From Desulfosediminicola ganghwensis (lineage in GTDB: Bacteria > Desulfobacterota > Desulfobulbia > Desulfobulbales > Desulfocapsaceae): DNA of 64,000 nt. Under the pieces are notes generated by a model. That model was not told the DNA's origin, did no database searches, and saw only the letters and a program-made list of their open reading frames with translations. Numbering within the stretch: position 1 is the first letter of the stretch; each line of letters opens with the position of its first letter. The DNA lies in contig NZ_CP050699.1 of NCBI RefSeq assembly GCF_005116675.2, positions 496,001 through 560,000 of the forward strand, given 5' to 3'. Shown in pieces: positions 14,389-17,966 of the stretch. The position numbers and the translations under genes are program-made.

Positions 14389-14688
14389 TCAAACGAAACC
14401 ATACAGCCCTTCGAAGACAGGATGATCACCGTCCGCAGTGCTCACCTCCTGGACATCCGGCAATTTCTGGATCTGCTTTACCACCTGCTCCAGTCTATCC
14501 ATCTCATCCACCTTCAGCCAGATCCTGCTATGGTCCCCCAGGCCAATGGGCACGCACGCGATTGCCTCGAGATTATACGCCCGCCTGGCAAAGAGGCTGC
14601 AGATATGGGACATCACTCCGGGATGGTTGTTGACTTCCAGCTGCAAAATTACTGTATTGGTATTTTCTTTAAGCGATCTGCTTGGCAT
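14389..14688 (-). CDS. ilvN: Acetolactate synthase small subunit
   Basis: This 99-residue single-ACT-domain regulatory subunit resembles E. coli IlvN of AHAS I (96 residues). NHPGVMSHICSLFARRAYNLEAIAC is the valine-binding ACT core. It lacks the longer C-terminal domain of IlvH. I start it at MPSRSLKE because GGAGG lies five bases upstream. This start overlaps the ilvB end by 20 nt, so the two are translationally coupled. It should give valine feedback inhibition to the catalytic subunit. Confidence 0.9.
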   Translation of the reverse strand: MPSRSLKENTNTVILQLEVNNHPGVMSHICSLFARRAYNLEAIACVPIGLGDHSRIWLKVDEMDRLEQVVKQIQKLPDVQEVSTADGDHPVFEGLYGFV

Positions 14689-16357
14689 AGGATCCTCCAA
14701 TCATGGAAATATTTGCAGCTCCCGGAGGAACAATTGGGTACACCTCTTCCTCTTTGCCTATAGGTGCATTGACCAGACACGGGCCCGGCTCATTGAGGGC
14801 TGCCTCGAGAACATCCTCCAATTTGCCGTCAATGCCCACATCATAGGCCCGCATACCAAATCCCCTGGCAATGGTGGCAAAATTAATATCTATCTGGAAG
14901 TCTGAGGCGAAATGATGTTGTGAATAAAACAATCCCTGCTGCTGACGCACCAGCCCCAGGGAGTTATTGTTCATTACAATAACCGTAACATTCAGCTGCT
15001 GTTCAACCGCCGTGGCCAGTTCCTGAATATTCATCTGCAAGCTGCCGTCACCAGAAAAACAGACCACTCGCTTTTCCGGATTGGCCAGGGCCGCTCCGAT
15101 CGCCGTCGGCAAACCAAAACCCATGGTGCCCAAGCCTCCGGAAGTGAGCAATTGCCGCGGTCGCGCAAACGGATAGACCTGTGCAGTCCACATCTGGTGT
15201 TTGCCTACATCGGTGGCGATAATTGCGTCATCTCCCAACCTCCTGGCAACCTCCAGGATAATCCCGTACGGCTTTTCAGGAATAATCTTTTCAGCATTGG
15301 TCATGGGGTAGGCGTTTTGCAGAACCCGTACCCTGTTCAACCAGCGGGAGCGCCTGTTTGACCCGATAAGGGGGAGAAGGGCCTCAAGAGTGGCCTTCAC
15401 ATCTCCGACCAAGCCGATATTGGCTGTTTTCAGCTTATTCACTTCGCTGGGGTCGATATCCATGTGAATGATGCGGGCATTCGGACAGAACTCAACAAGC
15501 TTTCCGGTTGCACGGTCATCGAAGCGGGCACCGGCGGCAATGAACAGATCACATTCCTGCAGAATCATGTTGGTTGATCGAGCCGCATGCATGCCAAGCA
15601 TCCCCAGGGAAAGCTGGGCATCAGCCGGCATTGCCCCAAGCCCCATCAGGGTCATAGCTGTTGGAATTTTAGCATGTTCTGCCAGTTGCATCGCCGCTTC
15701 GGCAGCGTCCGCGTGAATGACACCGCCGCCCAGACAGAGAACCGGCCTTTTCGCTGCATTGATAAGTTTAGCAGCCAGCCTGAGAGCTCCTTCAGGAACA
15801 GCGGTGGCGTCTTCGGACTGTCCCGGCTTGACCCACCTGGCAAAGGAAACCTGCTCCTGCTGTACATCTTTCGGGACATCAATCAATACCGGTCCCGGTC
15901 GTCCCGAAGTTGCCAGCCTGAAAGCCTCCGGAATCACATGCAGCAACTCCTGGGCCGAACGGACCATGAAATTATGTTTGGTTATGGGGATCGACATGCC
16001 GTAGGTATCGACCTCCTGGAATGCGTCTGTTCCGATCAGGGATGTCGGAACCTGACCAGTGATACAGACCACAGGGATTGAATCCAGGTAAGCATCTGCG
16101 ATTGCGGTCATAATATTGGTCGCTCCAGGGCCGGAGGTGGCAAAACAGACAGCGGCCTCTCCAGTGGACCGGGCCATGCCCTGGGCCATAAATCCCGCCC
16201 CCTGTTCATGGCGTGCCAGGACATGGCGAATTTTTCTTCTGGAATAGAGGGCATCGTATAACGGCAGATTGGCGCCCCCCGGAATACCGGAAACTGTTGT
16301 TATCCCCTGTCTCTCCAACAGACGAATGATTAACTCCGCTCCATTCATGGTTTGCAT
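14669..16357 (-). CDS. ilvB: Acetolactate synthase large (catalytic) subunit
   Basis: This 562-residue ThDP- and FAD-dependent enzyme condenses pyruvate to 2-acetolactate, or pyruvate plus 2-oxobutyrate to acetohydroxybutyrate, the first common step to Val, Leu and Ile. The catalytic glutamate lies in ARHEQGAGFMAQG, and the ThDP motif runs from GDGSLQMNIQE to NNNSLG. I start it at MQTMNGAEL, with AAGGAGAA seven bases upstream, rather than 15 codons earlier, where the longer frame would run into the attenuator. It is preceded by a leader peptide and terminator, so it is controlled by attenuation. Confidence 0.95.
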   Translation of the reverse strand: MQTMNGAELIIRLLERQGITTVSGIPGGANLPLYDALYSRRKIRHVLARHEQGAGFMAQGMARSTGEAAVCFATSGPGATNIMTAIADAYLDSIPVVCITGQVPTSLIGTDAFQEVDTYGMSIPITKHNFMVRSAQELLHVIPEAFRLATSGRPGPVLIDVPKDVQQEQVSFARWVKPGQSEDATAVPEGALRLAAKLINAAKRPVLCLGGGVIHADAAEAAMQLAEHAKIPTAMTLMGLGAMPADAQLSLGMLGMHAARSTNMILQECDLFIAAGARFDDRATGKLVEFCPNARIIHMDIDPSEVNKLKTANIGLVGDVKATLEALLPLIGSNRRSRWLNRVRVLQNAYPMTNAEKIIPEKPYGIILEVARRLGDDAIIATDVGKHQMWTAQVYPFARPRQLLTSGGLGTMGFGLPTAIGAALANPEKRVVCFSGDGSLQMNIQELATAVEQQLNVTVIVMNNNSLGLVRQQQGLFYSQHHFASDFQIDINFATIARGFGMRAYDVGIDGKLEDVLEAALNEPGPCLVNAPIGKEEEVYPIVPPGAANISMIGGSYAKQIA

Positions 16358-16400
16358 TGGTGGGTTCTCCTTGTTCTGTGTCGGCGCTTGCGGCGAGGCC

Positions 16401-16438
16401 AAAAAAAAACCCCCGCCGGCTTGCGCCGACAGGGGTTT
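16401..16438 (-). terminator. ilvB attenuator (transcription terminator in the leader)
   Basis: On the minus strand AAACCCC...CGGCG pairs with GCCGgcGGGG and is followed by nine T residues, 44 bases before the ilvB start. The upstream arm contains CGGCGC (16423-16428). That can instead pair with GCGCCG at the end of the leader peptide gene (16471-16476), giving mutually exclusive structures as in classic attenuation. Confidence 0.85.
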
Positions 16439-16467
16439 AAGTTACTATTTCTACTTATTTATTCCCG

Positions 16468-16575
16468 TTACGGCGCTGCGCCCTCCACTTTACGCACCAC
16501 GACCACCACACTCACAAGAATAAGTGCTAGAGCGAGAACAGAAACTGCGTTTACGCTGTTGGTGAAGTGGTTCAT
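16468..16575 (-). CDS. ilvBN leader peptide (branched-chain attenuation)
   Basis: This 35-codon frame runs ATG to TAA just upstream of the attenuator and is too short for standard ORF lists. The product has 10 Val, 4 Leu and 1 Ile among 35 residues, including five Val in a row (SVVVVVR) after LALALILV, and ends GAAP. This matches the role and composition of E. coli IvbL. Ribosome stalling at the Val/Leu codons would leave the GCGCCG segment free to form the antiterminator. With ample charged tRNA, the ribosome reaches the stop and lets the terminator form. The ribosome site is weak. Function is inferred, but the arrangement is highly specific. Confidence 0.88.
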   Translation of the reverse strand: MNHFTNSVNAVSVLALALILVSVVVVVRKVEGAAP

Positions 16576-16628
16576 CCGTAAAAAGTCCGTAACAAGATTT
16601 AAACTCAAATGCTATTGATAGTATTCCC

Positions 16629-16656
16629 GTTTATCAAAATTCAATAAAGCCGTCAA
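16629..16656 (-). promoter_or_regulatory. Candidate sigma-70 promoter for the ilv leader
   Basis: On the minus strand a -35 match TTGACG (16651-16656) is followed after 15-16 bases by GATAAA/ATAAAC. This lies about 55 bases upstream of the leader peptide start. Spacing is slightly short, so this is tentative. Confidence 0.4.
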
Positions 16657-16787
16657 GAAATAAAAATTACCCTGCACCTTGAATTTAAATAATTTTTCTT
16701 TGCCTGTACTCCACCTTTTCATTACTTTGTTTGGTGTTTTGCACACTGTTGTTTTTTATCTTCAACCACCCCTCAAAGGAGTCACCC

Positions 16788-17966
16788 ATGATTCAATCAT
16801 TCAATTTCAAATCAACTCCATCCCTGATATTCGGGGCCGGCAAGATCATGGAACTCCCCAACCTCCTGGGACAATTCGGCAAAAGATTACTGATCGTGGC
16901 AGGCGGCTCTTCTTTCACCTCAGGACCCGTCTGGCCGACACTGGAGATGACACTTATGCAAAACGGATTCTCCCTTGCCCTCTGCAGGATAGACAATGAA
17001 CCAACCCCGGCAGATATCGACCAGATATCCGACCAATACAGAGAGGAAAACATCGATGCCGTTATTGCCATTGGTGGCGGCAGCGTTCTGGACACAGGCA
17101 AGGCGGTCTCTGCCATGCTTGCCGAAAACGGATCAGTCGCAGATTTCCTTGAGGGAGTCGGTACCAGAAAACCAAGCGGCCTAAAAGTGCCGTTTATCGC
17201 GGTACCGACCACCTCCGGTACCGGCAGTGAGGCAACCAGCAATGCTGTTATCTGCAGTGTCGGTCCTGAGGGGTTCAAAAAATCTTTGCGGCACGATAAA
17301 TTCATCCCTGACCTTGCGCTGCTTGACCCGCAGCTTACGATTTCATGCCCAAGAGAACTCACCATCTCCTGTGGCATGGACACCTTTTCCCAGCTTGTCG
17401 AAGCGTATCTTTCCACCAATGCGTCTCCCATTACCGATGCCCTGGCACTTACCGGAATTCGCACCGTTATACAATCACTTCCCCAGGCAATAGCAGACGG
17501 CAATAACCTGGAGGCACGCAGTGACCTTTGCTATGGCTCCTATCTTTCAGGAATTGTGCTTGCCAATGCCGGGCTTGGTACCGTACATGGGTTTGCTTCA
17601 GCGCTTGGCGGATATTTTCCGATTCCCCATGGAATTGTCTGCGGCACGTTGATGGCAGCTGCCAACATGTCTGCCCTTGAGCAATTGCTTACAGAGCCTG
17701 AGTCGCAACCCACAGCCATCGCGCTCTCCAAATACGCAGCTTTAGGCAGAATGATCAAAGAGGAGACAACTTCGCAAGTAGAGGACGCCAGGGCGTTCAT
17801 CAGCTATCTGGTAAATCTCACGGAATCGTTACATCTGCCAAAGCTGTCTTCGTTTTCCATATCATATGAAGATCTGGAAAAGGTTGTCGCCACATCCTCA
17901 AATAAATATAACCCGGTGCAATTCACCGATGAACAACTGCTTCAGATACTCAGGGCCCGGCTATAA
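16788..17966 (+). CDS. Iron-containing alcohol dehydrogenase
   Basis: This 392-residue group III alcohol dehydrogenase has the NAD(P) motif GGGSVLDTGKA near residue 95. TTSGTGSEATSNAV follows, and the metal site includes GTVHGFASALGGYFPIPHGIVCG. Start ATG 16788 has AAAGGAG six bases upstream; the longer frame adds a hydrophobic stretch without support. It would interconvert an aldehyde or ketone and an alcohol in the cytoplasm. It stands alone between ilv and a sensor kinase, so the substrate is unknown. Confidence 0.9.
   Translation: MIQSFNFKSTPSLIFGAGKIMELPNLLGQFGKRLLIVAGGSSFTSGPVWPTLEMTLMQNGFSLALCRIDNEPTPADIDQISDQYREENIDAVIAIGGGSVLDTGKAVSAMLAENGSVADFLEGVGTRKPSGLKVPFIAVPTTSGTGSEATSNAVICSVGPEGFKKSLRHDKFIPDLALLDPQLTISCPRELTISCGMDTFSQLVEAYLSTNASPITDALALTGIRTVIQSLPQAIADGNNLEARSDLCYGSYLSGIVLANAGLGTVHGFASALGGYFPIPHGIVCGTLMAAANMSALEQLLTEPESQPTAIALSKYAALGRMIKEETTSQVEDARAFISYLVNLTESLHLPKLSSFSISYEDLEKVVATSSNKYNPVQFTDEQLLQILRARL

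Follow-up and report, generated by a model that had tools for sequence, protein, structure and literature searches.

The question raised by this locus is how an acetohydroxyacid synthase (AHAS) operon is controlled in Desulfosediminicola ganghwensis, and which part is played by a short Val-rich frame that precedes ilvB. Within the window, by which we mean the whole stretch of 64,000 nucleotides analyzed, the elements follow one another on the minus strand as promoter-like boxes, a 35-codon frame, a terminator, ilvB and ilvN. This arrangement is very probably a ribosome-mediated transcription attenuator of the ivbL type, which would sense charged tRNA-Val and control ilvBN. Attenuation of this type had been proposed in the initial annotation, and it is supported by the conservation of the parts, by compensatory changes, by a TTGAC box and by the scores of the ilvBN genes; read-through itself is what we infer.

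In NCBIfam, the downstream pair scores as ilvB and ilvN of the E. coli isozyme I type. The gene for the large subunit, ilvB (14669..16357, minus strand, start codon ATG at 16357), reaches 913.2 bits with PRK08155 (cut-off 870), and the gene for the small subunit, ilvN (14389..14700, minus strand), reaches 128.1 bits with PRK08178, a score that only just attains the cut-off of 128; we take these two to be models of the E. coli isozyme I subunits. The ilvN start is listed as TTG at 14700, with ATG at 14688 as a possible alternative. Moreover, the same genome encodes a second AHAS-like large subunit with 48% identity to IlvB, and the fixed leader and terminator rule described below detected no such leader upstream of that second gene.

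The ivbL-like leader peptide gene, taken from the list of open reading frames and with its frame kept in relatives, comprises 35 codons and a stop (16468..16575, minus strand, ATG at 16575) and encodes MNHFTNSVNAVSVLALALILVSVVVVVRKVEGAAP. It contains 10 Val, 4 Leu and 1 Ile, so that 15 of its 35 residues are branched-chain, and the candidate regulatory codons Val23-Val27 (GTG GTG GTC GTG GTG) occupy 16495..16509 of the minus strand in the leader reading frame. Upon recounting, the length of the frame, its 15 branched-chain residues and its five consecutive Val, as claimed in the initial annotation, were all found at the positions given there. The terminator with nine T that had been claimed between the leader and ilvB was also found by the terminator scan. 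This intrinsic terminator (16401..16438, minus strand), which folding and conservation likewise indicate, consists of a stem at 16438..16407, with 14 pairs (9 of them G-C) and a loop of 4, and of a T run at 16409..16401, the last T being 43 bases from the ilvB ATG. The scan alone is not above chance, with 2 sites in 2 kb against 1.8 expected, because its pattern is lax.

Folding and covariation further delimit a predicted antiterminator on the minus strand. Its 5' arm, GCGCCG-UAA-C-GGG (16464..16476), spans the leader stop codon, and its 3' arm, CCUGUCGGCGC (16423..16433), overlaps the 5' arm and loop of the terminator, which makes the two pairings mutually exclusive. The complementarity between GCGCCG (16476..16471) and CGGCGC (16428..16423), already pointed out in the initial annotation, is exact, and the leader end, the stop codon and the GGG that follows can pair with the first arm of the terminator. 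When the RNA was folded only as far as the first terminator arm, GCGCCG-(UA)-ACGGG paired with CCUGUCGGCGC through 11 pairs and one two-base bulge, and 4 of 200 shuffles were equally stable; with the second arm included, the terminator became the minimum-energy fold, a stability reached by none of 200 shuffles. CGGCGC extends with its last two bases into the four-base loop of the window's terminator, which does not need them. Beyond the T run, at 16379-16387 of the minus strand, GCGCCGACA is the exact reverse complement of TGTCGGCGC in the terminator arm, and a GCCGRCA-like piece between the T run and ilvB was seen by eye to recur in relatives, being absent from many.

To place these features among relatives, IlvB orthologues were collected from several genome sets, all matches having an E value of 1e-180 or better. 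They were present in 22 of 93 genomes at the family level, in 41 of 257 at the order level, in 20 of 395 sampled across the phylum (3 of these 20 also belonging to the order) and in 12 of 369 from a class sample centred on the L093 genome (Oryzomicrobium); searching the class of the window's own genome covered the same 257 genomes as the order and yielded nothing further. A scan of named genomes contributed the best 80 of 355 loci, including Desulfopila, Desulforhopalus, Desulfobulbus and Halodesulfovibrio. Once 33 duplicate loci had been taken out, 72 distinct upstream regions of genes with at least 50% IlvB identity were retained, the class-sample loci being counted apart. An internal TGA suspected in the ilvB of four genomes, and a TAG in that of a fifth, proved to be the regular stop codon that ends the gene.

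The fixed rule called for six of ten V/L/I residues near the frame end, together with a hairpin of -15 kcal/mol or lower and at least 4 T, located 36-80 bases after the stop. It recognized 64 of the 72 ilvB upstream regions, as compared to 1 of 1420 dinucleotide shuffles and none of 72 reverse complements, and hence leader and terminator occur together more often than by chance; the leader frame, whose conservation upstream of ilvB the initial annotation had proposed to examine, is conserved. Among the eight regions that it passed over, L016, L030, L092 and L107 have a leader and hairpin on reading, though short of the rule, L050 and L102 have no fitting leader and terminator on reading, and L026 offers only 53 bases of upstream sequence. 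The eighth, L046 (Pantoea plasmid pJZ29-02), combines MNFIPVAVQIVNVTVLVVVMTPAPKG, a Val-rich frame, with a GC-rich hairpin that lacks a T run, and reads as a degenerate or non-terminating version of the element. In the class sample, 11 of the 12 genomes have a Val-rich frame (V/L/I at 8 or 9 of 10 positions), and 9 of the 12 have frame and terminator together, one of the 12 being the L093 genome itself. More distant AHAS genes (below 50% identity) yielded 5 recognized regions in 36, namely L111, L112, L115, L117 and L137. L111, L112 and L115 (the latter two from Omnitrophota) and L117 (Chitinispirillaceae), whose AHAS has 44-45% identity, show Val/Leu-rich frames followed by terminators; the peptide end contains PTAL in the first three, unlike the ivbL type, and these four leaders possibly represent a second attenuator family.

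Within the Desulfobulbales, the longest Val run comprises five residues in 27 of 41 leaders, and in 36 of 41 it is separated from the stop by 7-9 residues; Desulfopila aestuarii DSM 18488 (L064, identical upstream to L005) shares the Val5 run of the window. GCG serves as the penultimate codon in 28 of the 41 and GTG in 10, the remaining 3 having GCG one codon earlier, and the conservation of this codon extends to the third base. By eye, the leaders vary in N-terminal sequence and in length but agree in their Val run and last codons. The Val codons used are GTG (50%) and GTC (32%) in the leaders, and GTG (30%) and GTC (34%) in the ilvB genes. The ribosome binding site of the leader is weak, with a mean anti-SD energy of -2.3 kcal/mol versus -10.2 kcal/mol for ilvB. 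In L052 and L054, the leader frame runs on for about 12 more bases before its stop, and an in-frame GCGCCGATGGG still pairs with the terminator arm.

The codon content of the leaders bears on which signal is sensed. The same parts could respond to a general slowing of translation, or to leucine or isoleucine in place of valine, an alternative that overlaps with the best explanation and that we regard as improbable, though it deserves serious consideration. E. coli ilvBN responds to both Val and Leu, and Leu and Ile codons are indeed present in the leaders studied here, accounting for 83 and 31, respectively, of the 820 codons that make up the last 20 positions of the 41 Desulfobulbales leaders. 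Nevertheless, Val is dominant, with 315 of the 820, and the spacing between its run and the stop hardly varies; as Val codons outnumber Leu codons so clearly, valine would be the likeliest signal. Thus, the Val/Leu codon runs anticipated in the initial annotation are conserved in relatives, with the refinement that they are made of Val far more than of Leu.

The competing pairings were then evaluated in an alignment of 67 rows obtained from the 72 upstream regions. L026 was left out for its short upstream sequence, L046, L050 and L102 because no fitting leader and terminator were found by script, and L063 (51% identity) because its end is unlike the others, although it has a Val/Leu-rich frame and a strong terminator. 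Over the 67 loci, 82.9% of the cells in the 11 antiterminator pairs form standard pairs, as opposed to 40-55% when one side is slid by 1-3 columns; 8 of the 11 pairs show double changes, a number reached by 10 of 500 shuffles, and the covariation score is above all 500 shuffles, these shuffle controls ignoring relatedness, so that the counts are not probabilities. Two columns pair poorly, column 18 being unpaired in 32 of 67 rows and column 22 in 28 of 67. In the 40 Desulfobulbales rows considered separately, 88.9% of the cells are paired versus 42-60% when slid, and the score is again above all 500 shuffles; the 3 doubly changed pairs and 10 further pair types of this group alone, reached by 131 and 229 of 500 shuffles, respectively, represent no excess. 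The terminator pairing is likewise kept across relatives (92.5% versus 35-57% when slid, with 5 doubly changed pairs). Furthermore, the antiterminator bases that fall in the loop of the window's terminator are kept and covary in the 40 Desulfobulbales (columns 13/71 and 14/70, the latter with CG in 30, UG in 8 and UA in 2), and since the terminator does not need these bases, the antiterminator is the simplest reason for their being kept.

Individual lineages illustrate how the two sides change together. In L013 and L024, one base follows GTGCC at the leader end, and GGCAC is found in the terminator; eight other leaders with GTGCC (L007-L012, L014 and L015) face GGCGC through a G-U pair. In Halodesulfovibrio and Desulfomicrobium (L092, L107, L095 and L098), the leader end is CGTTG or CGCTG and the terminators have CAGCG or TAGCG, and in L106 the leader end CGCGTCG corresponds to TGACGCG in the terminator. 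The alternative pairings suggested for examination in the initial annotation are thus conserved in relatives, with compensatory changes. Duplex calculations, a weaker test whose outcome agrees with the covariation, gave a mean of -23.2 kcal/mol for leader and terminator of the same locus versus -19.1 kcal/mol when the leader came from another clade; the GC-rich leader end pairs as well in 8.5% of its mononucleotide shuffles, and foreign leaders are often nearly as good, a median of 12% pairing with a given terminator as well or better.

A covariance model of the element was also searched against the 257 genomes of the order. It gave 40 matches of at least 51.5 bits, each directly upstream of ilvB and one apiece in 40 of the 41 genomes that carry the gene, the 41st being that of L026 with its 53 bases of upstream sequence; strong matches at ilvB come by construction, given that the model was built from such loci. 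This does not apply to the finding that no match of at least 51.5 bits occurs elsewhere in the 257 genomes, obtained with stricter filters and 17 candidates scored per genome, settings under which weak relatives may be missed. Among the weaker matches listed for other places (below 45 bits), 13 were read and contained no Val-rich leader, most of them resembling gene-end terminators.

Upstream of the leader, a -35 box (TTGACG, 16651..16656, minus strand) and a -10 box (TAAACG, 16628..16633, minus strand) are predicted with a 17-base spacer, the -10 box ending 52 bases before the leader ATG. The core TTGAC is conserved at this side of the leaders: it is present within 150 bases upstream of the ATG in all 40 leaders with an assigned ATG (12% in mononucleotide shuffles), and together with a suitably spaced -10 box in 31 of the 40 (4% in mononucleotide shuffles). 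The -10 box ends 33-55 bases before the ATG in 28 of those 31, and its distance is implausible in L016, L031 and L043. In the window, the boxes predict a transcription start near 16621, about 45 bases before the leader ATG; a consensus promoter scan names another site, 16637..16609, likewise upstream of the leader. The initial annotation had set a start downstream of 16468 against its own reading, and the conserved TTGAC box points to a start upstream of the leader, as judged from sequence. Across the promoter region, a divergent gene (16731-17966, plus strand) has, by eye, the look of an iron-type alcohol dehydrogenase.

These results also bear on whether the frame encodes a functional small membrane peptide, with a 3' terminator of its own and with ilvBN transcribed from a separate promoter. 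The frame is hydrophobic, and the peptide shows a sub-cut-off NCBIfam match to a transmembrane-like domain (E 0.74, 9.8 bits against a cut-off of 22), no family being found in Pfam. However, its N-terminus and length vary, while the Val run, the last codons and the third base of the penultimate codon are kept; the 3' end of the frame covaries with the terminator; and the consensus scan detected no promoter-like match within the mere 43 bases from the T run to ilvB. We therefore hold a membrane peptide to be very improbable. Least credible of all is that the leader frame is incidental and the terminator is the target of a protein or of a metabolite-binding RNA (T-box or riboswitch), for which no supporting point was found and against which stands the conservation of the Val frame in relatives; no Rfam family reached its gathering score over positions 16200-16900 of the window (best rnk_leader, 29.5 bits versus 50). 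Sub-threshold Rfam alignments to NsiR1 and to the best parts of rnk_leader and His_leader fit the terminator hairpin and were rejected.

According to the preferred reading, attenuation of the ivbL type, transcription would start about 45 bases before the leader ATG. With charged tRNA-Val plentiful, the ribosome would reach the leader stop and cover GCGCCGUAACGGG, and with GCGCCGUAACGGG covered the terminator (16438..16401) would form and transcription would end before ilvB. With charged tRNA-Val in short supply, the ribosome would stall in the Val run and leave the leader end free; this would then pair with CCUGUCGGCGC before synthesis of the second terminator arm, and, once the antiterminator had formed, the polymerase would read through into ilvB and ilvN. 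Stalling, read-through and valine as the main signal are the steps that we infer here. In a model that assumes a ribosome footprint of -15..+11, folds of 40 leaders contained on average 9.1 pairs of region 2:3 when free, 9.1 with the ribosome at the first Val and 8.5 with the ribosome at the last Val; with the ribosome at the stop there were 0, a value that follows from the assumed footprint by construction. For the window, 10.3 and 10.0 pairs were obtained with the ribosome at the first and last Val, respectively, and 0 with the ribosome at the stop. At least 5 antiterminator pairs were retained in 34 of the 40 leaders with the ribosome at the first Val and in 30 with the ribosome at the last Val, fewer than 5 being left in 6 and 10, respectively. 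Overall, the modelled ribosome geometry fits ribosome-mediated attenuation. No excess pairing was detected for a 1:2 pause hairpin (mean z of 0.14 over 41 loci and 0.0 over 67, +0.5 in the window), and annotated E. coli ivbL also fails the same test (+1.6). Consequently, the prediction for a leader that is not translated is antiterminator formation and read-through.

In an IlvB tree (FastTree), 42 Desulfobulbales sequences form one clade with a support of 0.993, around which Gammaproteobacteria, Rhodocyclaceae and other Desulfobacterota are interleaved, the deep nodes being weakly supported. Leaders are spread over most branches, L167 and L100 (Sumerlaeota) near the base among them; on reading their upstream regions, no fitting leader and terminator were found in L168, and no terminator in L157 and L164. 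Of the isozyme-I ilvB genes examined, most of those in Desulfobacterota and Gammaproteobacteria, and one in Sumerlaeota, have the element upstream. Given its occurrence across most branches, the element may predate these splits and transfers, and the attenuator is apparently an old companion of the isozyme-I enzyme in several bacterial phyla. A broader proposal, which taken as a whole falls somewhat short of an even chance, is that the ivbL attenuator represents a single homologous RNA element that predates the enterobacterial system where it was discovered and has accompanied isozyme-I ilvBN in its transfers among Desulfobacterota, Gammaproteobacteria and Sumerlaeota; it would have two competing hairpins only, with a ribosome at the stop codon as the sole block to the antiterminator, and loss of leader translation would lead to read-through and not to superattenuation.

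The passages on distribution in a 2017 survey assign AHAS I to Gammaproteobacteria, with Desulfovibrio and one firmicute as exceptions (PMC5727371). In the present work, the AHAS I ilvB genes of the order (41 of 257 genomes) are accompanied by the element in 40 cases, and 17 further genomes of the phylum sample carry the gene. Among the literature matches listed, no title or abstract opening dealt with an ilvB attenuator in Desulfobacterota; earlier surveys (Vitreschak 2004, Lopatovskaya 2010) likely hold earlier cases. What appears to be newly added is the extension of ivbL-type attenuation to Desulfobacterota with comparative evidence. This lineage thereby gains a well-supported candidate amino-acid switch and a short gene easily missed by annotation, and the spread of AHAS I makes the co-evolution of attenuator and operon testable across phyla.

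In the attenuators of trp, his and ilvGMEDA, the position of the ribosome chooses between two hairpins, and a 1:2 pause hairpin is present. The element described here would follow the same ribosome-position principle; a 1:2 hairpin was detected neither here nor, with the same test, in E. coli ilvBN. Actinobacteria ilvB leaders (the ilvB-II motif, C. glutamicum ilvBNC), compared by description, resemble it in having a short Ile/Val/Leu frame and a terminator before ilvB, but their frames overlap the terminator hairpin, and their mode of regulation is called not clear in the section of PMC1262725 that describes them; ilvB leader peptides of Actinobacteria also feature among the literature matches listed (PMC10272879, PMC11857589). 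The closest resemblance is to E. coli ivbL-ilvBN (L044), attenuation of which is presented as established in the relevant part of PMC1183508, and whose stretch was found in 5368 of 5426 E. coli genomes, with annotated ivbL and ilvB among the matches listed. The two systems differ in that they belong to different phyla, the leader N-termini are dissimilar by eye, a single Val5 here stands against Val4 and Val5 in E. coli ivbL, and the leader stop is followed by CGGG here and by GGAC in E. coli. Nevertheless, they have in common the isozyme I operon, a Val-run leader ending in GCGCCG and the stop, CGGCGC in the first arm and loop of the terminator, and similar distances between these parts.
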